Assembly (NCBI GenBank): GCA_947623585.1
Contig: CANQHA010000008.1
Coordinates: 1 to 64,000, forward strand
Direction of reading: 5' to 3'
From: an uncultured Clostridia bacterium
GTDB taxonomy: Bacteria; Bacillota; Clostridia; Oscillospirales; Ruminococcaceae
DNA: 64,000 nt
Positions 10,660-58,793 of this stretch are shown piece by piece. A program made the translations under genes and the position numbers. Numbering within the stretch: position 1 is the stretch's first letter; every line of letters starts with the position of its first letter. The notes under the pieces were generated by a model. It was given only the letters and a program-made list of their open reading frames with translations, was not told where the DNA came from and did not search any database.

Positions 10660-10667
10660 TTAAGACA

Positions 10668-10840
10668 ATACTGATAGAGGCGCGGTGCGTCATCAGTAAC
10701 CGAAGCCGGGCGCATTGCCGATGCGGGCTTCGGCGAAAGGGGCCTCCGCCGAGGACATTTCGCGGCAAAGAAATGATCCGGCGCAACGGATTAACAGCCG
10801 TTTCGCTGTCGCACACCGTGCGGAGGGCTATCGCGTGAAT
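10668..10840 (+). ncRNA. Lysine riboswitch (L box)
   Basis: Contains the conserved blocks of the lysine aptamer in order: GATAGAGGCGCG (from 10673), GCGAAAGGGGCCTCCGCCGAGG in the middle, and GGAGGGCTATCGCG (from 10822). GATAG and CTATC close the P1 stem. It lies between a promoter and dapA, the expected place for lysine feedback. A terminator hairpin follows. Confidence 0.9.
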
Positions 10841-25171: not shown

Positions 25172-25193
25172 TAATTCATCAATTTCAAGTCAC

Positions 25194-25302
25194 TAAGAGT
25201 AGAGCTACGAGCGTGAAACAGTGTCGGGCAGACGGGGAGTTGCTGCCCGAACAAAACGCCGCAAAATCGCGGCTGCGGTTCGTATCTCGCATCCCGCTTA
25301 AC
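25194..25302 (+). ncRNA. Tetrahydrofolate riboswitch candidate
   Basis: AAGAGTAG (25195-25202) at the 5' end and GCATCCCGCTT (25289-25299) at the 3' end match the conserved termini of the THF aptamer, and AAG pairs with CTT. AGCTACGA can pair with TTCGTATCT as the next helix. The downstream gene is a folate-type ECF S component, a known target class. Judged by eye; a covariance search would settle it. Confidence 0.68.
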
Positions 25303-51073: not shown

Positions 51074-51103
51074 TTGACAAAGGCTTTAAATCAGTGATAT
51101 AAT
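51074..51103 (+). promoter_or_regulatory. Promoter of the T-box operon
   Basis: TTGACA, 18-nt spacer, TATAAT. The T-box leader begins just downstream. Confidence 0.78.
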
Positions 51104-51109
51104 AGCCGA

Positions 51110-51386
51110 TAACAAAAGCTGTGACGAAGACGGAACGCCTTGCAGCGCGTTTTTCAGAGAGTCGGCGGGGATGCGAGCCGATAAACGCTTAGGCAGTTCA
51201 TATCACTTCCGAGCTGAAAGCCCGAGCCCCTTTTTGAAGGATGTAGACGCTTTCCGCGACTGCGCGTTATAGCAGAAGGCTTAAATCAAACGAGCCGGAG
51301 AGGCGGAATTTTCCGCAAGTTGAGTGGTACCGCGGGTATATAACGTTTGTTGTAACTCGTCTCAAGTTTTTTGAGACGGGTTTTTC
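51110..51386 (+). ncRNA. T-box leader, specifier read as ATC (isoleucine)
   Basis: Stem I shows the AGAGAGTCGG / CCGATAA distal part (51155-51184), and GGAA pairs with TTCC at its base. The specifier side reads ATC (51202-51204) followed by ACTTCCGAGC, the usual register. The T-box bulge segment is TGAGTGGTACCGCGGG (around 51321-51336), and a 10-bp terminator (51356-51380) followed by T5 closes it. Charged tRNA would favour termination. Recognition as a T-box is firm; the Ile reading is by eye. Confidence 0.9.
51356..51386 (+). terminator. T-box-controlled terminator
   Basis: CTCGTCTCAA / TTGAGACGGG with a 5-nt loop and T5, competing with the antiterminator that contains the T-box sequence. 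Confidence 0.85.
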
Positions 51387-51416
51387 ATTTTTTATAACTT
51401 TTAAAGGAGAGATTTT

Positions 51417-53693
51417 ATGAGCACAAACACTGCCACGACTTCGCTTTTTGAGGTGGCGGAGCGAATCAGGGAGATGCGCGAGATCATGGGCTGGAGCACC
51501 GCCGAAATGGCCGAGAAGACGGAGGTGACCGAGGAGGAGTATCTTGAATACGAATCGGCAAAGGCCGACCTACCCTTTACCTTTATCCACAAGTGCGCCC
51601 TCGCTTTCGAGATCGACCTTACCGACCTTTTGGAGGGCCGCAGCGCCGCGAGACTTTCGAGCTATACCCTCACGAGAAAGGGCCAGGGTCAGGTGACGGC
51701 GAGAGAACAGGGCATCGACATCGCTAACCTTGCGCCGAAGTTCCGCGACAAGATCGCTGAGCCGTACTGGGTCAAGTACGAATACAGCGAGGCGCAGCAG
51801 AATATGCCGATTCACCTGACAAAGCACAGCGGTCAGGAATTCGACCTCATCATCTCGGGAAGCCTTAAGGTTCAGGTGGGAAGCCACATTGAGGTGCTTA
51901 ACGAGGGCGACAGCATTTATTATAACTCATCGACCCCTCACGGAATGATTGCCGTTGACGGAAAGGACTGCGTTTTCGTCGCGGTGGTGCTGCCCGGAGA
52001 GGATACGACCGAGGAAACCGTCAGAACGTCGGTCATTCAGGCTAACAGACCGCAGAAGGAAACCCTTTTGTGCGAGAGGTTCGTCGATACCGTCGAGGAC
52101 GAGAACGGCAAGCTGAAAAGCATCAAGTTCAAAAACACCGAGAGCTTTAACTTCGGGTTCGACTGCGTTGACGCCATAGCGGATAAATACCCCGAAAAGC
52201 TCGCGATGGTTCACCTTGACAAGCATAAGGTCGAGCGCAGATTTACCTTTAAGGACATCAAGAGGGCCTCGAATCAGACAGCGAATTACTTCCGCTCGCT
52301 CGGAATAAAACGCGGCGACAAGGTAATGCTCGTTCTGAAAAGACATTATCAGTTCTGGTTCGCGATGACGGCGCTTCACAAGCTGGGAGCGGTCGCTATT
52401 CCCGCTACGAATCAGCTTAAAGAACACGATTTTATTTACAGGTTCGACCGCGCCGGGGTCTCGGCTATTCTTTGCACCGCCGACGGAGACGTTGCGGAAA
52501 TCGCCGAGAGGGCCGCGGCTCAGTGCCCGAGCGTTAAGACGAAGATTCTCGTCGGAGGCGTGAGAGAGGGCTGGAGAGACTTCGATAACGAATATCCGCT
52601 TTTCACCGGAAAGTTTGAAAGACCCGAGGATTGCTCGGCGGGAAGCGATATGGCGCTGATGTTCTTTACTTCCGGCACCACCGGCAACCCGAAAATGGCA
52701 GCCCACGCGCACACCTATGCCCTCGGTCACTTCGTTACCGCGAAATATTGGCACTGCTGCGAAAGAGACGGTCTGCACCTGACTATCTCGGACACCGGCT
52801 GGGGCAAATCGCTTTGGGGCAAGCTGTACGGTCAGTGGCTCTGCGAGGGCGCGGTGTTCGTCTATGACTTCGATAAGTTCGACGCCTCGGATATTCTGCC
52901 TCTCTTCAAAGAATATAACATCACGACCTTCTGCGCGCCGCCGACTATGCTGAGAATGATGATAAAAGAGGACCTTTCGGGATACGACCTTTCGTCGATA
53001 CACCATATGACCACCGCAGGCGAGGCGCTTAACCCCGAGGTCGCGAAGCAGTTTAAGCAGGCGACCGGACTTGAGATAATGGAGGGCTTCGGTCAGACCG
53101 AGACCACACTCGTTATCGGAAACCTTTACGGCGACGTGCCGAAATACGGCTCGATGGGCAAGGCTTCGCCGCAGTATGACATCGACATTTTGGACCCCGA
53201 CGGAAATCCCTGCGCAAACGGCGAGGTCGGCGAGATAGTCATCAAGACCTCGGACGAGGTGCCGGTGGGACTTTATAAGGAATATTACCTCGACGATAAG
53301 CTGACGCTTGAAGCGTGGCACGACGGATATTATCATACCGGCGACACCGCCTGGAGAGACGAGGACGGATATTTCTGGTATGTTTCGAGAATAGACGACG
53401 TTATCAAGTCGTCGGGTTACAGAATAGGCCCGTTCGAGATCGAAAGCGTTATCATGGAGCTTCCATATGTTTTGGAGTGCGGCGTTTCGGCAGTGCCCGA
53501 CGAGGTTAGAGGGCAGATAGTCAAGGCGAGCATTGTTCTCACCAAAGGCACAGTCGGCACCGACGAGCTTAAAAAGGAAATCCAGAATTACGTCAAGAGC
53601 CATACCGCGCCTTATAAATATCCGCGCGTGATAGCTTTCAGAGACGAGCTTCCGAAGACGATAAGCGGAAAGATTCAGAGAAATAAGCTGTGA
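51417..53693 (+). CDS. AMP-forming acyl-CoA synthetase fused to an XRE-cupin N terminus
   Basis: 758 aa. Helix-turn-helix (about 10-73: IREMREIMGWSTAEMAEKT), cupin (about 125-190: HSGQEFDLIISGSLKVQVG, HGMIAV), then an ANL ligase with P-loop FTSGTTGNPK, GFGQTE, KSSGYRIGPFE and catalytic Lys752 in TISGKIQR. The ligase part is closest to the medium-chain/branched acyl-CoA synthetases. XRE-cupin is normally a regulator, so this may sense its own substrate. First gene under the Ile-type T-box, followed by korDABC; branched short-chain acids such as 2-methylbutyrate or isobutyrate are the likely substrates (inference). Confidence 0.88.
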   Translation: MSTNTATTSLFEVAERIREMREIMGWSTAEMAEKTEVTEEEYLEYESAKADLPFTFIHKCALAFEIDLTDLLEGRSAARLSSYTLTRKGQGQVTAREQGIDIANLAPKFRDKIAEPYWVKYEYSEAQQNMPIHLTKHSGQEFDLIISGSLKVQVGSHIEVLNEGDSIYYNSSTPHGMIAVDGKDCVFVAVVLPGEDTTEETVRTSVIQANRPQKETLLCERFVDTVEDENGKLKSIKFKNTESFNFGFDCVDAIADKYPEKLAMVHLDKHKVERRFTFKDIKRASNQTANYFRSLGIKRGDKVMLVLKRHYQFWFAMTALHKLGAVAIPATNQLKEHDFIYRFDRAGVSAILCTADGDVAEIAERAAAQCPSVKTKILVGGVREGWRDFDNEYPLFTGKFERPEDCSAGSDMALMFFTSGTTGNPKMAAHAHTYALGHFVTAKYWHCCERDGLHLTISDTGWGKSLWGKLYGQWLCEGAVFVYDFDKFDASDILPLFKEYNITTFCAPPTMLRMMIKEDLSGYDLSSIHHMTTAGEALNPEVAKQFKQATGLEIMEGFGQTETTLVIGNLYGDVPKYGSMGKASPQYDIDILDPDGNPCANGEVGEIVIKTSDEVPVGLYKEYYLDDKLTLEAWHDGYYHTGDTAWRDEDGYFWYVSRIDDVIKSSGYRIGPFEIESVIMELPYVLECGVSAVPDEVRGQIVKASIVLTKGTVGTDELKKEIQNYVKSHTAPYKYPRVIAFRDELPKTISGKIQRNKL

Positions 53694-54181
53694 TGAACGT
53701 CATACTCAGATACGCCTGCTCCGAGGACGCCGAGGCGGTCGGAAGGCTTCACTACACCTGCTGGCAGGAGACCTACCGAGGTCTTCTGCCCGACGGCTAT
53801 CTTGACAAAATGAGCCCCGAAAAGAGCGCGAAGATATTTCGCTCGACCGGCTGCCGCAACCTCATCGTCGCGGTATGCGGCGGCGAGATCGTAGGCGAAT
53901 GCGGCTTCGGCGCCTCGCGCGACGAAGATCTTGAAAACTGCGGCGAGATACAGGGGATATATGTCCTGAAAAAATATCAGCGCCAAGGGATCGGCAGAAG
54001 GCTGATGTCGCTTTCTCTTGACAGGTTAAAATCCTACGGGTATACTAAGGCGTGTCTTTGGGTGCTTAAAAGCAACGAAAATGCCAAGGAATTTTACCGT
54101 TCGGCAGGATTTTCGCCAGACGGCGCAGAAAAGGCGGTTCCGTTCAACGAGATAAGATATATAACCGATATCGAGAGGTGA
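53693..54181 (+). CDS. GNAT-family N-acetyltransferase
   Basis: 162 aa. The acetyl-CoA site is visible as IYVLKKYQRQGIGRRLM and ends with the family's NENAKEFYRSAGF. Its ATG overlaps the ligase stop (TGATG), so the two are translationally coupled. Substrate unknown. A protein-lysine acetyltransferase controlling the ligase is a tempting idea, since many AMP-forming acyl-CoA synthetases are regulated that way, but nothing in the sequence proves it. Confidence 0.88.
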   Translation: MNVILRYACSEDAEAVGRLHYTCWQETYRGLLPDGYLDKMSPEKSAKIFRSTGCRNLIVAVCGGEIVGECGFGASRDEDLENCGEIQGIYVLKKYQRQGIGRRLMSLSLDRLKSYGYTKACLWVLKSNENAKEFYRSAGFSPDGAEKAVPFNEIRYITDIER

Positions 54182-54183
54182 AT

Positions 54184-54840
54184 ATGCACAGGGTAACTCT
54201 TTTCGCCGGGCATTACGGCTCGGGCAAGACGAATCTTGCGGTAAACTTTGCGCTTAAACTTAAAAACGAGGGGAAGCGCGTGGTAATCGCCGACCTCGAT
54301 ATCGTAAACCCGTATTTTCGCACAAAGGATTCCGCGGAGCTGCTCGAAAAAAACGGAGTCGAGGTGGTTTCGCCCGAATTCGCTAACTCTAACGTCGATC
54401 TGCCCGCGCTGCCCTCGCAGCTTTACGGGGTGGTCCAGAACAGAGAACGGTATGCCGTGCTCGACATCGGCGGAGACGACAGGGGAGCTTACGCGCTCGG
54501 AAGATTTGCGCCGTATATTTTGGAGGAAAACGACTTCGAGATGATATTCGTAGCAAACTTTCGCCGCCCGCTGACCCTTAGCCCCGAGGACGCGCTCGAG
54601 GTCATGAAAGAGATAGAAGCCGCGGGAGGAATCCCTTTTACCGGAATCGTGAACAACACTAACCTCGGAAAGCTGACCGAGCCCGAAACGGTGCTCGAGG
54701 GGCTTGAGCTATCAAAAAAACTGGCGAAGCTGTGCGGACTGCCGGTTTTGTACAGCTCGGCCGAGAGAAGCGTTGCGGAAAAAATCAACAGCGACGGGAT
54801 ATTCCCGATAGATCTGCAAAGGAAAATTTTTGACTTATAA
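54184..54840 (+). CDS. P-loop ATPase of the MinD/ParA (SIMIBI) type
   Basis: 218 aa. Deviant-type Walker A near the N terminus (FAGHYGSGKTNLAVNFA), ADLDIVNPYFRTKD, and VLDIGGDDRG. This family includes maturation and cofactor-loading ATPases as well as partition proteins. Encoded between an acyl-CoA ligase and the Kor subunits, it could help assemble or activate the iron-sulfur oxidoreductase, but that is context only. The start is the ATG after GAGAGG; a GTG two codons earlier is possible. korD follows after 15 nt. Confidence 0.72.
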   Translation: MHRVTLFAGHYGSGKTNLAVNFALKLKNEGKRVVIADLDIVNPYFRTKDSAELLEKNGVEVVSPEFANSNVDLPALPSQLYGVVQNRERYAVLDIGGDDRGAYALGRFAPYILEENDFEMIFVANFRRPLTLSPEDALEVMKEIEAAGGIPFTGIVNNTNLGKLTEPETVLEGLELSKKLAKLCGLPVLYSSAERSVAEKINSDGIFPIDLQRKIFDL

Positions 54841-54855
54841 CGGAGGTAGTTTTTA

Positions 54856-55065
54856 ATGGCAAAGGTTACTTTTGAAACGGATATCTGCAAAGGGTGCGGA
54901 CTGTGCGTGAACGCCTGCCCCAGAGGGATAATCGCCATTGCCAAAGACAAGATCAACAAAAAAGGTCATTCGCCCGCGGAGATAACCGATCAGTCGAAGT
55001 GCATCGGCTGCGCCTGCTGCGCGATCATGTGCCCCGACTGCGTTATTACCGTCGAGAAGGACTGA
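54856..55065 (+). CDS. korD: 2-oxoacid:ferredoxin oxidoreductase, delta (ferredoxin) subunit
   Basis: 69 aa, two [4Fe-4S] motifs: Cys11/14/17 with Cys21, and Cys49/52/55 with Cys59. Relays electrons between the TPP site of KorAB and external ferredoxin. It begins the korDABC set; spacing to korA is 12 nt. CGGAGG ribosome site. Confidence 0.92.
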   Translation: MAKVTFETDICKGCGLCVNACPRGIIAIAKDKINKKGHSPAEITDQSKCIGCACCAIMCPDCVITVEKD

Positions 55066-55077
55066 GGAGGAGATTTT

Positions 55078-56139
55078 ATGGCTAAAGTTCTGATGAAAGG
55101 CAACGAGGCGGTCGCGGAAGCGGCTATCAGATCGGGCTGCCGCCACTATTTCGGCTATCCGATAACGCCTCAGACCGAGATAGCGGCCTATATGGCGAAG
55201 CGTATGCCGAAGATAGGCGGAACGTTTTTGCAGGCAGAAAGCGAGATCTCGGCCATCAACATGGTTTACGGAGTTTCTTCGGCGGGAAGAAGAGTTATGA
55301 CTTCGAGCTCGAGCCCCGGAGTTTCGCTTAAGCAGGAGGGGATATCTTACCTCGCCGGCTCGGACCTTCCGGCGCTCGTCGTCAACGTTCAGCGCGGAGG
55401 CCCCGGTCTCGGAGGGATCCAGCCGTCGCAGTCGGATTATTTTCAGGCGACAAAGGGCGGCGGCCACGGAGACTATCACCTGATAGTTCTGGCGCCGGCC
55501 TCGGTCCAGGAAATGGCCGACCTCACCGCGAAGGCTTTTGACCTCTCGGATAAATACAGAATGCCCGCTATGCTTCTGGCGGACGGCACTATCGGTCAGA
55601 TGATGGAGCCGGTGGAGCTTCCGCCCGAGACCGACGGAAACGCCGTCGAAAAGCCTTGGGCGGTGACCGGAACGGAAAACAAAAGGGAGCACAACATCAT
55701 CAACTCGCTCTATCTCGTTCCGGAGCAGCTTGAGGTCAAAAACCTCGAAAGATATGAAAGATATAAGACCGTCGAACAAAACGAGGTGATGTTCGAGGAA
55801 TATATGACCGAGGACTGCGACGTTTGCGTCGTGGCTTTCGGAATCGCGGCGAGAGTATCTAAAAACGCTATCACCGCGGCAAGGGCGAAGGGCATTAAAG
55901 CGGGACTTATCAGACCGATAACCCTTTGGCCGTTCCCGAAGGATATCATCGCAAAAACCGCCGAAAGGGTCAAGGGCTTCGTTTCGGTCGAGCTTTCGAT
56001 GGGTCAGATGATAGACGACATCAGGCTTGCGGAAAGCTGCAAAAAGCCGGTCGCGCTCTGCTCGAGAGTGGGCGGAATGATACCCTCGCCGGACGAAGTG
56101 CTTAAAGCCGTTGAGGATATGGAAGGGGGAAAATTCTGA
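55078..56139 (+). CDS. korA: 2-oxoacid:ferredoxin oxidoreductase, alpha subunit (VorB/KorA-like)
   Basis: 353 aa. Starts [20 protein letters not shown], then [21 protein letters not shown] and [17 protein letters not shown], the pattern usually labelled as the 2-ketoisovalerate (VorB) type. With KorB it forms the TPP-dependent core that oxidatively decarboxylates 2-oxoacids to acyl-CoA, or runs in reverse with reduced ferredoxin. The branched-chain label agrees with the Ile T-box and nearby ilvE, but substrate range cannot be read from sequence. Its stop overlaps korB by one base. Confidence 0.92.
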
Positions 56140-56891
56140 TGGCGGTAGTTTTTTCTAAACCCAAGGCGCTTACCGACGCGCCTCTGCACTATTGCCCCGG
56201 CTGCACCCACGGGATCATCCACAGGCTCGTCGCCGAAGCGATAGACGACCTCGGAATCATCGGAAAAACGGTCGGTATAGCTCCGGTCGGCTGCGCCGTT
56301 ATGGCTTACGACTATTTTGCCTGCGATATGGTCGAAGCGGCCCACGGCAGGGCGCCGGCGGTCGCGACGGGACTTAAACGAGCTATGCCCGACAGGATTA
56401 TATTTACCTATCAGGGCGACGGAGACCTCGCTTCTATCGGTATGGCCGAAACAGTTCACGCGGCGACGAGAAACGAAAATATCACCGTTATTTTCGTAAA
56501 CAACGCGATTTACGGCATGACCGGCGGACAGATGGCTCCGACCTCGCTGCCCGGACAGGTCACCCAGACCTCGCCTTACGGCAGAGACGTTAAGACCGTC
56601 GGATACCCGATAAAGGTCTGCGAGCTGCTCTCGGCGCTTGACGCACCGGAATATATCGAAAGAGTGGCGGTGAACAACGTCAAAAACGTTATGAACGCGA
56701 AAAAAGCTATCAAAAAGGCGTTTCAGAATCAGATCGACGGCAAGGGCTTCTCGCTTATCGAGGTGGTATCGAGCTGCCCGACAAACTGGGGAATGACCCC
56801 GCAAAAAGCCCTCGATTGGGTGGAAAGCGATATGATACCCTATTACCCGCTCGGGGTTTATCGCGATAAATCCGCAAAGGAGGCAAAGTGA
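56139..56891 (+). CDS. korB: 2-oxoacid:ferredoxin oxidoreductase, beta (TPP) subunit
   Basis: 250 aa. HYCPGCTHG with cluster-type cysteines Cys19 and Cys22 near the N terminus, and the TPP motif [11 protein letters not shown] with [11 protein letters not shown] further on. Catalytic subunit of the oxidoreductase; translationally coupled to korA (TGATGG) and followed after one base by korC. Confidence 0.94.
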
Positions 56892-56892
56892 T

Positions 56893-57432
56893 ATGGCTTA
56901 TACTCAGATCCTTATTGCGGGATTCGGCGGTCAGGGAGTTTTGTTCGCGGGAAAGGTGCTCGCTTATAAGGGGCTTACCGAGAACAAACAGATAAGCTGG
57001 CTTCCGTCTTACGGACCCGAAATGCGCGGAGGCACCGCAAACTGCTCGGTGATAGTGAGCGATACGCCGGTGGGCTCGCCGATAGTCTCGGAGCCGGATA
57101 TACTCATCGTTATGAACCTGCCCTCGCTCGACAAATATGAAAACGCAGTCGTTAAGGGCGGTTACGTCTTTGCGGACTCGACGCTTATCGAGAGAAAGGT
57201 CGAAAGAAAGGACGTTAAGGCGTTTTATATCCCCGCGACGAAAATGGCCCGCGAGCTCGGAGTGCCGACGCTCGCAAACATGATACTTCTCGGAAAGGTG
57301 ATCAAGGAGACCGGAGCCGTGAGCATCGACGGGCTTAAAGACGCCCTCGTCAAGACCGTTTCGGCAAAGCATCAGGACCTTGTCGAGGCAAACCTCAAAG
57401 CGATAGAGGCGGGGTACAGGTACGAGGAGTAA
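56893..57432 (+). CDS. korC: 2-oxoacid:ferredoxin oxidoreductase, gamma subunit
   Basis: 179 aa. Starts [23 protein letters not shown], the signature of the gamma domain, with [13 protein letters not shown] next. It completes the DABC enzyme and closes the T-box operon; R5 lies in the gap before ilvE. Confidence 0.94.
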
Positions 57433-57455
57433 AGGCGCGAAGGGGAGCGAGCCCG

Positions 57456-57582
57456 CCCCCTCCCCTTTGAGGGGAGGGGGCGAAGCAAAGGTTGGATTTC
57501 CGCCGAAAGTGCGGCGGGGGAGGGGTGGCTAAACGATAGCATTCTTCTTACCCGCGGGAGCGGGGAAGATGAATACCTTTTT
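57456..57582. repeat. Dispersed element R5 (centre and right half)
   Basis: Central hairpin CCCCCTCCCC / GGGGAGGGGG (57456-57480), equivalent to GCCCCCGCCCC / GGGGCGGGGGC of R1 with a paired base change. Right arm GGGGGAGGGGTGG, ACGATAGCATTC, hairpin TTACCCGC/GCGGGGAA, GATGAATACCTTTTT. No left arm. Lies between korC and ilvE. Confidence 0.75.
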
Positions 57583-57661
57583 CCCCCTCGGGGAGCTTTG
57601 TTTGAAATAGCGCCGAAATTTTTAGCCGCGCAAAAACGCACGCAAAATTCGCGCAGAAGTA

Positions 57662-57690
57662 TTGCATTGTGACAAAAACGGTATTATAAT
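57662..57690 (+). promoter_or_regulatory. Promoter of ilvE
   Basis: TTGCAT, 17-nt spacer, TATAAT; ilvE can therefore be expressed independently of the T-box. Confidence 0.7.
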
Positions 57691-57722
57691 GTTTAAGATC
57701 AATCGTTCAGGAGGCTTAAATT

Positions 57723-58793
57723 ATGCTTGATATCAAAATTCAGAAAACCGCGTCGCCGAAAAAAATACCCGCAAAGGGCGAAAAGCTCGGATTCGGTCAC
57801 ATCTTCACCGACCATATGTTTATCATGAACTATACCGAGGGTAAGGGCTGGCATGACCCGAGGATCGTTCCTTTCGGAGACATTACTCTCAGCCCCGCGG
57901 CAATGGTTCTGCACTACGGTCAGGAGATGTTCGAGGGGCTTAAGGCTTATCGCGGTGAAAACGGAGAGGTCTATCTTTTCAGACCCGATATGAACGCAAA
58001 GCGCGCAAACAACTCTAACGACAGGCTTTGCATTCCCCGCATACCCGAGGAGGATTTCGTTCAGGCCGTTAAAGCCGTTGTCGCGGTCGATAGCGACTGG
58101 GTGCCTTCGGAGGAGGGGACTTCGCTTTATATCAGACCTTTCGTTATCTCTACCGACGCTCACCTCGGAGTTGCGCCCTCGAAAACATATATGTTCATAA
58201 TAATCCTCTCGCCCTCGGGAGCTTACTATGAGAGCGGGCTCGCACCCGTCGGAATCTGGATCGAGGACGAATATGTCAGAGCGGTCCGCGGTGGAATGGG
58301 TTTCGCAAAAACCGGCGGAAACTATGCGGCTTCTCTGGCGGCTCAGGTCAAAGCCCATGACGGAGGATATTCTCAGGCGCTGTGGCTCGACGGAGTTGAG
58401 AGAAAATATATCGAGGAAGTCGGCTCGATGAACATAGCCTTCAAAATCAGCGGAAAGGTCGTCACCCCGATGCTCAACGGCTCGATACTGCCCGGCATCA
58501 CCCGCGACTCTATTCTGCACCTCTGCCGCGAGTGGGGCTATGAGGTCGAGGAGAGAAGAATTTCGGTCGACGAGCTTATCGCGGCGGCACATTCGGGCGC
58601 GCTCGAAGAGGTTTTCGGAACCGGCACTGCGGCGGTGGTTTCGCCGGTCGGAAAGCTGAGATATAAAGACGACGTTATTGAGATCGGCGGCGGAAAAATC
58701 GGCGAGCTGACACAGAAACTTTACGACGAGCTCACCGGAATTCAGTGGGGAAAGAGACCCGATCCTTACGGCTGGAGAGTTAAGGTCTGCTGA
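57723..58793 (+). CDS. ilvE: Branched-chain amino acid aminotransferase
   Basis: 356 aa class IV PLP aminotransferase. PLP lysine Lys196 in GFAKTGGNYAAS; LHYGQEMFEGLKAY and RPFVIS belong to the substrate and phosphate regions. Interconverts Ile, Leu and Val with their 2-oxoacids. Located right behind korDABC, it would convert the oxidoreductase product to the amino acid (or feed it in the opposite direction). CAGGAGG ribosome site; single-gene unit. Confidence 0.95.
   Translation: MLDIKIQKTASPKKIPAKGEKLGFGHIFTDHMFIMNYTEGKGWHDPRIVPFGDITLSPAAMVLHYGQEMFEGLKAYRGENGEVYLFRPDMNAKRANNSNDRLCIPRIPEEDFVQAVKAVVAVDSDWVPSEEGTSLYIRPFVISTDAHLGVAPSKTYMFIIILSPSGAYYESGLAPVGIWIEDEYVRAVRGGMGFAKTGGNYAASLAAQVKAHDGGYSQALWLDGVERKYIEEVGSMNIAFKISGKVVTPMLNGSILPGITRDSILHLCREWGYEVEERRISVDELIAAAHSGALEEVFGTGTAAVVSPVGKLRYKDDVIEIGGGKIGELTQKLYDELTGIQWGKRPDPYGWRVKVC

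Follow-up and report, generated by a model that had tools for sequence, protein, structure and literature searches.

Why should an RNA that senses the charging of isoleucine tRNA stand ahead of genes for activating a carboxylic acid? The locus that raises this question occupies positions 51,110 to 58,793 of a 64,000-nucleotide stretch of contig CANQHA010000008.1 (assembly GCA_947623585.1) from an uncultured Clostridia bacterium of the Ruminococcaceae; this whole stretch is called the window below. Here a T-box leader precedes genes for an AMP-forming acyl-CoA ligase, a branched-chain 2-oxoacid:ferredoxin oxidoreductase (VOR) and a branched-chain aminotransferase, and an earlier note on the sequence had proposed that low charging of isoleucine tRNA induces the conversion of 2-methylbutyrate into isoleucine. 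The feature is confirmed as real and is larger than first described, comprising isoleucine and valine versions of a putative acid-to-amino-acid salvage. Judged from sequence data, the reading that 2-methylbutyrate is reductively carboxylated to isoleucine under T-box control, and isobutyrate likewise to valine in relatives, has a probability of about 0.8.

The leader was recognised by a covariance-model scan (cmscan) as a member of the T-box family RF00230 at 51112–51367 on the forward strand, which carries all features of the operon. The match is significant (81 bits, E 5.5e-18) and spans the full model (1–219). The leader places a specifier codon, ATC, in the Stem I loop (51202–51204), and its UGGN antiterminator core, GTGGTACCGCG at 51324–51334, faces a competing intrinsic terminator, a stem followed by a T-run (51354–51382). 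Within the core, sequence and model alignment locate the UGGN bulge (TGGT, 51325–51328), which is expected to pair with the NCCA end of the tRNA. Transcription probably starts from a sigma-70-type promoter, TTGACA-18-TATAAT, at 51074–51103, which agrees with 12 of 12 consensus positions. It should be noted that the score falls short of the RF00230 gathering score of 93, so that a default Rfam scan missed the T-box and a permissive scan recovered it. Such scores are common in this genome: eight of the ten T-boxes found lie below 93, and five of those eight precede aminoacyl-tRNA synthetase genes (valS, alaS, cysE-cysS, pheS and thrS, downstream genes assigned by eye). Folding of the leader alone gave a z score of −1.21.

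The specifier was read with a spacing rule, codon, one nucleotide, about five nucleotides and GAG. This rule returns the expected codon in all nine other T-boxes of the genome, read by eye (hisS CAC, tyrS TAC, trpE TGG, leuA CTC, valS GTC, alaS GCT, cysE-cysS TGC, pheS TTC and thrS ACC), with a tolerance in these leaders of 3–6 nt in the spacing and, in valS, GAA instead of GAG. A tyrosine specifier (TAT), obtained by a one-base shift, would violate the rule and was rejected. The isoleucine T-box that the earlier note had read ahead of the ligase is thereby upheld, with the leader found by covariance model and no codon other than ATC supported by the rule, and it is the only isoleucine-sensing T-box among the ten found in the window genome.

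The first gene of the transcript (51417–53693) encodes a 758-aa fusion of an XRE helix-turn-helix, a cupin and an AMP-forming acyl-CoA ligase (Pfam, NCBIfam and a PDB match), predicted to be a 2-methylbutyryl-CoA ligase. Its best match among 104 NCBIfam families is MbcS (NF047394), at 436.5 bits against a cut-off of 850, so the protein is not filed as MbcS; the nearest solved structure by sequence is PDB 3etc (E 2.8e-190), matched over the ligase part only. All four VOR subunits are present: VorD, the 4Fe-4S ferredoxin-type subunit (54856–55065), VorA, alpha (55078–56139), VorB, beta, with the thiamine pyrophosphate domain (56139–56891), and VorC, gamma (56893–57432). The alpha subunit scores 555.6 bits over the VorB-type cut-off of 399 (NF005507), which places the enzyme in the branched-chain type, and VorC reaches 82.4 against 81.1 (TIGR02175), while VorD and VorB match their Pfam and NCBIfam families but score under the cut-offs shown. 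IlvE (57723–58793) exceeds the TIGR01123 cut-off, with 415.5 bits against 250. The run of closely spaced genes described earlier holds from the ligase through VorC; it had left unmentioned a GNAT acetyltransferase (53690–54181, Pfam) and a ParA/CbiA-like P-loop NTPase (54178–54840, Pfam), and ilvE follows only after 290 nt (57433–57722), a gap that contains a GC-rich inverted repeat lacking a T-tail.

How, then, does this bacterium obtain isoleucine? The window genome (G000; 2.07 Mb, 99.5% complete) has one cluster behind a leucine T-box with leuA, leuC, leuB, ilvB, ilvN, ilvC and ilvD, each above an NCBIfam cut-off, and a 164-aa open reading frame between leuC and leuB that is presumably leuD. 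Neither ilvA nor cimA was found above cut-off in this genome, the best matches (TIGR01127, E 1.9e-21, and TIGR00977, E 7.4e-22, respectively) lying far below it. The three PALP proteins are accounted for as cysK, trpB and thrC, and the three HMGL proteins as leuA, the oxaloacetate decarboxylase alpha subunit and an aldolase-like protein that reaches none of the cut-offs shown. Isoleucine synthesis is thus left without a recognised source of 2-oxobutyrate, methionine breakdown and the like being outside the search. G044, the other genome of this genus, has the same ilvD, ilvA and cimA pattern. A separate complete isoleucine pathway with its own isoleucine T-box, the arrangement that the earlier note had set against its own proposal, was not found in the window genome.

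Relatives were collected from two sources. A family sample of 148 genomes gave 128 with a ligase match, many of them weak, and 60 stretches around the better matches were taken; from a GTDB contig scan the best 80 of at least 591 confirmed relatives were kept, many titled as ruminant-gut metagenome-assembled genomes. The resulting survey, window included, holds 171 ligase copies with at least 40% identity and leans to close relatives. The T-box is kept over the ligase in two SPECIFICITIES: Ile and Val. It could be read upstream of 134 of the 171 copies, 128 by a strict core pattern and six added by eye (L043 copy 1, L074, L103, L104, L114 copy 1 and L133); the automatic specifier parser misread one of the 128 (L132 copy 2, corrected by eye to GTA). 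The specifiers are ATC in 95, GTA in 33, GTC in 4 and GTG in 2, that is, 95 isoleucine and 39 valine, the latter written in three synonymous codons, and no other amino acid occurs among the 134. An Rfam check of 13 loci picked from the pattern matches returned 15 T-boxes, with E values between 8e-11 and 7e-24; the tandem loci L013 and L014 contributed two apiece. The expectation that orthologues would keep the isoleucine T-box is therefore borne out in many species. Isovalerate, which had also been entertained as a substrate, is not supported: with 0 of 134 T-boxes on this ligase family reading leucine, an isovalerate-to-leucine ligase was rejected, and the absence of leucine-type leaders is in line with the poor handling of isovalerate by Staphylococcus aureus MbcS described in PMC10026030.

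The two specificities often meet in one place. Thirty loci hold two ligases, and in 22 of them the copies form a tandem pair with two T-boxes, separated by 348–1737 nt, always with the isoleucine copy first and the valine copy second (22/22); the second copies of two of these pairs, L120 and L165, are more than 97% identical. NTPase and VorA lie downstream in all 22, so that one VOR is shared. Five other two-ligase loci have a T-box on the first copy only (isoleucine), two have none, and in L191 a valine copy and an isoleucine copy stand 5.5 kb apart, in reverse order to the tandem pairs. The earlier suggestion that isobutyrate might be used as well fits these relatives, with their valine-type copies; beside the window operon no valine-type copy was found, and the second ligase match of that genome is too weak for listing. 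Across the survey, 36 loci have VorA downstream, each of them together with the NTPase; VorC is within the stretch in 33 of these VOR-linked loci and ilvE within 9 kb in 23.

Two of the surveyed loci carry further genes after VorC. In L042 (4786–8676, reverse strand) and L044 (9966–13888, forward strand) a divergent LeuA-like protein (HMGL and LeuA_dimer) is accompanied by a fusion of the 830-aa class joining a xylose-isomerase-like TIM barrel to an AMP-forming ligase (by Pfam in L042, by eye in L044). In L042 a separate T-box, with a CTC (leucine) specifier by eye, precedes the leuA-like gene, which is followed by an amidohydrolase and apparent aromatic-pathway genes.

The classical route was traced by searching 80 genomes for ilvD, ilvA and cimA, a strong ilvD being defined by E < 1e-125. 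Twenty-nine genomes have both ligase types, as judged by T-box or, in five (G079, G160, G163, G166 and G168), by tandem position alone; 27 owe this status to single loci, G050 and G116 to separate ones. Among these 29, ilvD is strong in two (G154 and G169), a weaker PF00920 match occurs in two (G105 and G170) and 25 have no match; ilvA exceeds its cut-off only in the two genomes with strong ilvD. For comparison, 20 genomes of the family have no ligase match, and the 12 of these that were searched show ilvD in 8, ilvA in 9 and cimA in 1 (Fisher tests, ilvD p 0.0002 and ilvA p 0.00003, uncorrected for kinship and with completeness unstated for the genomes reached through contigs). Genomes with both ligase copies have thus mostly lost the classical route.

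The codon in the RNA is matched by a residue in the enzyme. On a ligase-domain tree of 168 sequences, left after dropping three near-copies from the 171, the isoleucine/valine label changes five times, compared with a mean of 32.8 after shuffling and with 0 of 500 shuffles as low; with column 463 removed and the loose-core rows added, it changes six times. When all ligase columns were ranked, the one that best separates the labels was residue 463, which is Gly in the window (codon 52803–52805). Isoleucine-types carry Gly here in 90 of 93 cases (Ala in 2, Met in 1), valine-types Ala in 38 of 38, and rows without a T-box split into 20 Gly and 17 Ala. The match follows the label across the tree: L089 and L100, valine-types in a distant group outside the main valine clade, have Ala, and L131 and L134, isoleucine-types nested in that clade, have Gly. 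It also extends to copies without a T-box, all 7 tandem second copies of this kind having Ala, and all 3 VOR-linked copies that stand first or alone (L044, L153 and L156) having Gly.

In structural terms, the same position in acetyl-CoA synthetase (Acs), Val310, lines the acetate pocket. Residue 463 sits four residues before W467, which corresponds to chain residue 282 of 3etc, that is, Trp259 of the Methanosarcina acetivorans synthetase MacsMa (an offset of 23, set by the YHTGD motif). W467 and G559 are invariant in all 168 rows; G559, read by motif, would take the position of the Acs pocket Trp, and with the Trp259 equivalent and a Gly replacing that Trp the window ligase falls among the MacsMa-like synthetases. 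The MacsMa residue at the 463 position is also Gly (Gly255 by alignment), and PMC10455477 describes Trp259 as critical for substrate binding and 2-methylbutyrate as the preferred acid. Gly463 may thus give space for the extra carbon of 2-methylbutyrate, and Ala may suit isobutyrate.

Taken together, these elements suggest the following course. As expected of the T-box class, uncharged tRNA-Ile would pair with the ATC specifier and the UGGN bulge, favouring the antiterminator and hence transcription of the operon. The ligase would convert 2-methylbutyrate from other microbes to 2-methylbutyryl-CoA, which VorDABC, with reduced ferredoxin and CO2, would carboxylate to 3-methyl-2-oxopentanoate, and IlvE would transaminate the latter to isoleucine. 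In the window bacterium the salvage would replace the missing IlvA/CimA step, with ilvBNCD and the leu genes providing valine and leucine; many relatives have a further ligase, under a valine T-box, by which isobutyrate would reach valine over the shared VOR, Gly or Ala at 463 fixing the pocket size for the C5 or C4 acid. On a wider scale, it seems likely that a gut Clostridia lineage exchanged the ilv route for the salvage of acids, each under an RNA switch of its own: an isoleucine T-box for the 2-methylbutyrate ligase and a valine T-box for the isobutyrate ligase, with VOR and transaminase shared. In G105 at least, a leuA under a leucine T-box could also use the VOR product. As part of this scenario, codon and Gly/Ala residue would have switched together several times, and the T-box codon would predict the ligase substrate.

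The same isoleucine T-box could serve other chemistries. Were the ligase to form propionyl-CoA and the VOR 2-oxobutyrate, ilvBNCD and ilvE could complete isoleucine, and the window genome, which keeps ilvBNCD and has neither ilvA nor cimA above cut-off, leaves room for this; MacsMa also forms propionyl-adenylate (PMC10455477), although according to the same source it leaves CoA transfer uncompleted with many poorer substrates. However, such a route fits the window genome alone: in the 25 of 29 both-type genomes without a PF00920 match 2-oxobutyrate would be stuck, and the larger side chain of the valine-types implies a smaller pocket, the opposite of what a C3 acid for isoleucine and a C4 acid for valine would demand, so that we regard it as quite unlikely. 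Hardly more plausible is a role in membrane lipids, in which the ligase, under isoleucine shortage, primes branched-chain fatty acids via 2-methylbutyryl-CoA while the VOR feeds the same pool oxidatively. MbcS, the best NCBIfam match, has that role in S. aureus (PMC10026030), and T-box ligases without VOR in the stretch taken are common. Yet the locus contains VorDABC and ilvE in a genome with no other recognised isoleucine route, a ligase beside an oxidative VOR would be redundant, and the rarity of ilvD where both ligases exist (2 of 29) points to amino-acid supply. A catabolic, energy-yielding direction, with IlvE and VOR oxidising amino acids to acyl-CoA, was considered and rejected as a reading of the operon, and is very improbable. 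VOR-type enzymes often run this way in fermenting anaerobes, but induction by uncharged isoleucine tRNA would squander a scarce amino acid and an AMP-forming ligase spends ATP. The isoleucine specificity, biosynthetic direction and branched-acid substrate proposed earlier are instead strengthened by the lack of ilvA and cimA above cut-off, the isoleucine T-box over orthologues and the valine T-box over a tandem paralogue that shares the VOR.

Several observations nevertheless weigh against the proposed salvage or narrow it. Membership of ilvE in the T-box transcript is not clear, and no T-box of its own was found ahead of the gene. No T-box is readable over 37 of the 171 copies, some of which lie at contig edges. 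Two of the 29 both-type genomes (G050 and G116) have cimA above cut-off, as do 22 in a set of 28 more distant ligase-bearing family genomes to which these two also belong; the ligase is therefore not always the sole route. Fourteen of those 22 have no PF00920 (ilvD) protein (e.g., G073, G060, G097 and G086; several are 96–100% complete), which would leave 2-oxobutyrate there without the classical path on to isoleucine. The named contigs are nearly all from metagenome-assembled genomes of unstated completeness. The Gly rule is broken by three isoleucine-type ligases (L088 and L103 with Ala, L106 with Met), and independent pairs on supported branches number only four, for which a sign test gives p 0.125, with 0.05 out of reach; over 200 random pairings the four are unanimous in 157, three of them agree in the remaining 43, and none disagrees.

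The chemistry is old. Its acids and products match those proposed here: rumen fermentation turns 2-methylbutyrate into isoleucine and isobutyrate into valine (Robinson & Allison 1969; Allison & Peel 1971, cited in PMC7356843). That work is older and concerns other organisms, and what is proposed here are genes, RNA control and a lineage. Methanobrevibacter ruminantium requires 2-methylbutyrate, and its carboxylation was likewise inferred as the isoleucine route where the usual pathway lacks a gene (PMC2812497), but this is an archaeon and the relevant passage describes no dedicated regulated operon. S. aureus MbcS, also an AMP-forming ligase, is selective for 2-methylbutyrate and isobutyrate (PMC10026030), and it is just these two acids that lead to isoleucine and valine. 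In contrast, it feeds fatty acid synthesis, that article mentions T-boxes 0 times, and the window ligase adds an XRE-cupin part and scores under the MbcS cut-off. MacsMa has the pocket residues Trp259 and, by alignment, Gly255 in common with the window ligase and prefers 2-methylbutyrate (PMC10455477), the acid predicted for the window ligase, but is archaeal and matches the ligase part alone. The T-box leaders of leuA, ileS and other aminoacyl-tRNA synthetase genes belong to the same RNA class and follow the same logic (PMC2494555), whereas the target here is an acid-salvage ligase, with two specificities over paralogous ligases in one locus in relatives.

The RNA control and its match with the enzyme appear to be the new part, within the literature searched. 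A limited search, with older T-box surveys outside it, found no paper linking T-boxes to the branched-acid carboxylation route or reporting such an RNA-enzyme match, the one hit on T-box and route concerning Geobacter leuA only; nor did the literature searched yield, for Clostridia, a gene set for branched-acid use whose control is described. The words "ferredoxin" and "acyl" occur 0 times in the main text of PMC2494555, as do "ferredoxin" and "acyl-CoA" in that of PMC3766115. If the proposal holds, a compact gene set can be named for a long-known rumen conversion of branched short-chain acids to amino acids, and the valine version in relatives may help account for branched-acid use by rumen bacteria. 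Sequence would then predict which species takes which acid, with a regulatory RNA codon serving as predictor of an enzyme pocket, which is relevant to isoacid feed supplements and to cross-feeding in gut communities.

The remaining parts of the operon allow more tentative readings. The XRE helix-turn-helix and cupin part of the ligase (51459–51986) is a separate gene just upstream in many distant relatives, and might form a second layer of control responding to the acid or acyl-CoA. The P-loop NTPase, which stands between the ligase and VorD and is retained in 36 of 36 VOR-linked loci, perhaps delivers Fe-S clusters to VorD, which is a guess. The GNAT gene downstream of the ligase is limited, among the loci surveyed, to the window and the genome of the same genus. 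Elsewhere in the window, a lysine riboswitch (10667–10838, 83.6 bits) lies upstream of dapA (TIGR00674, over cut-off) and an ornithine/diaminopimelate/arginine-family decarboxylase, and a tetrahydrofolate riboswitch (25193–25301, 67.3 bits) lies upstream of a folT-type energy-coupling factor transporter component (TIGR04518, over cut-off).

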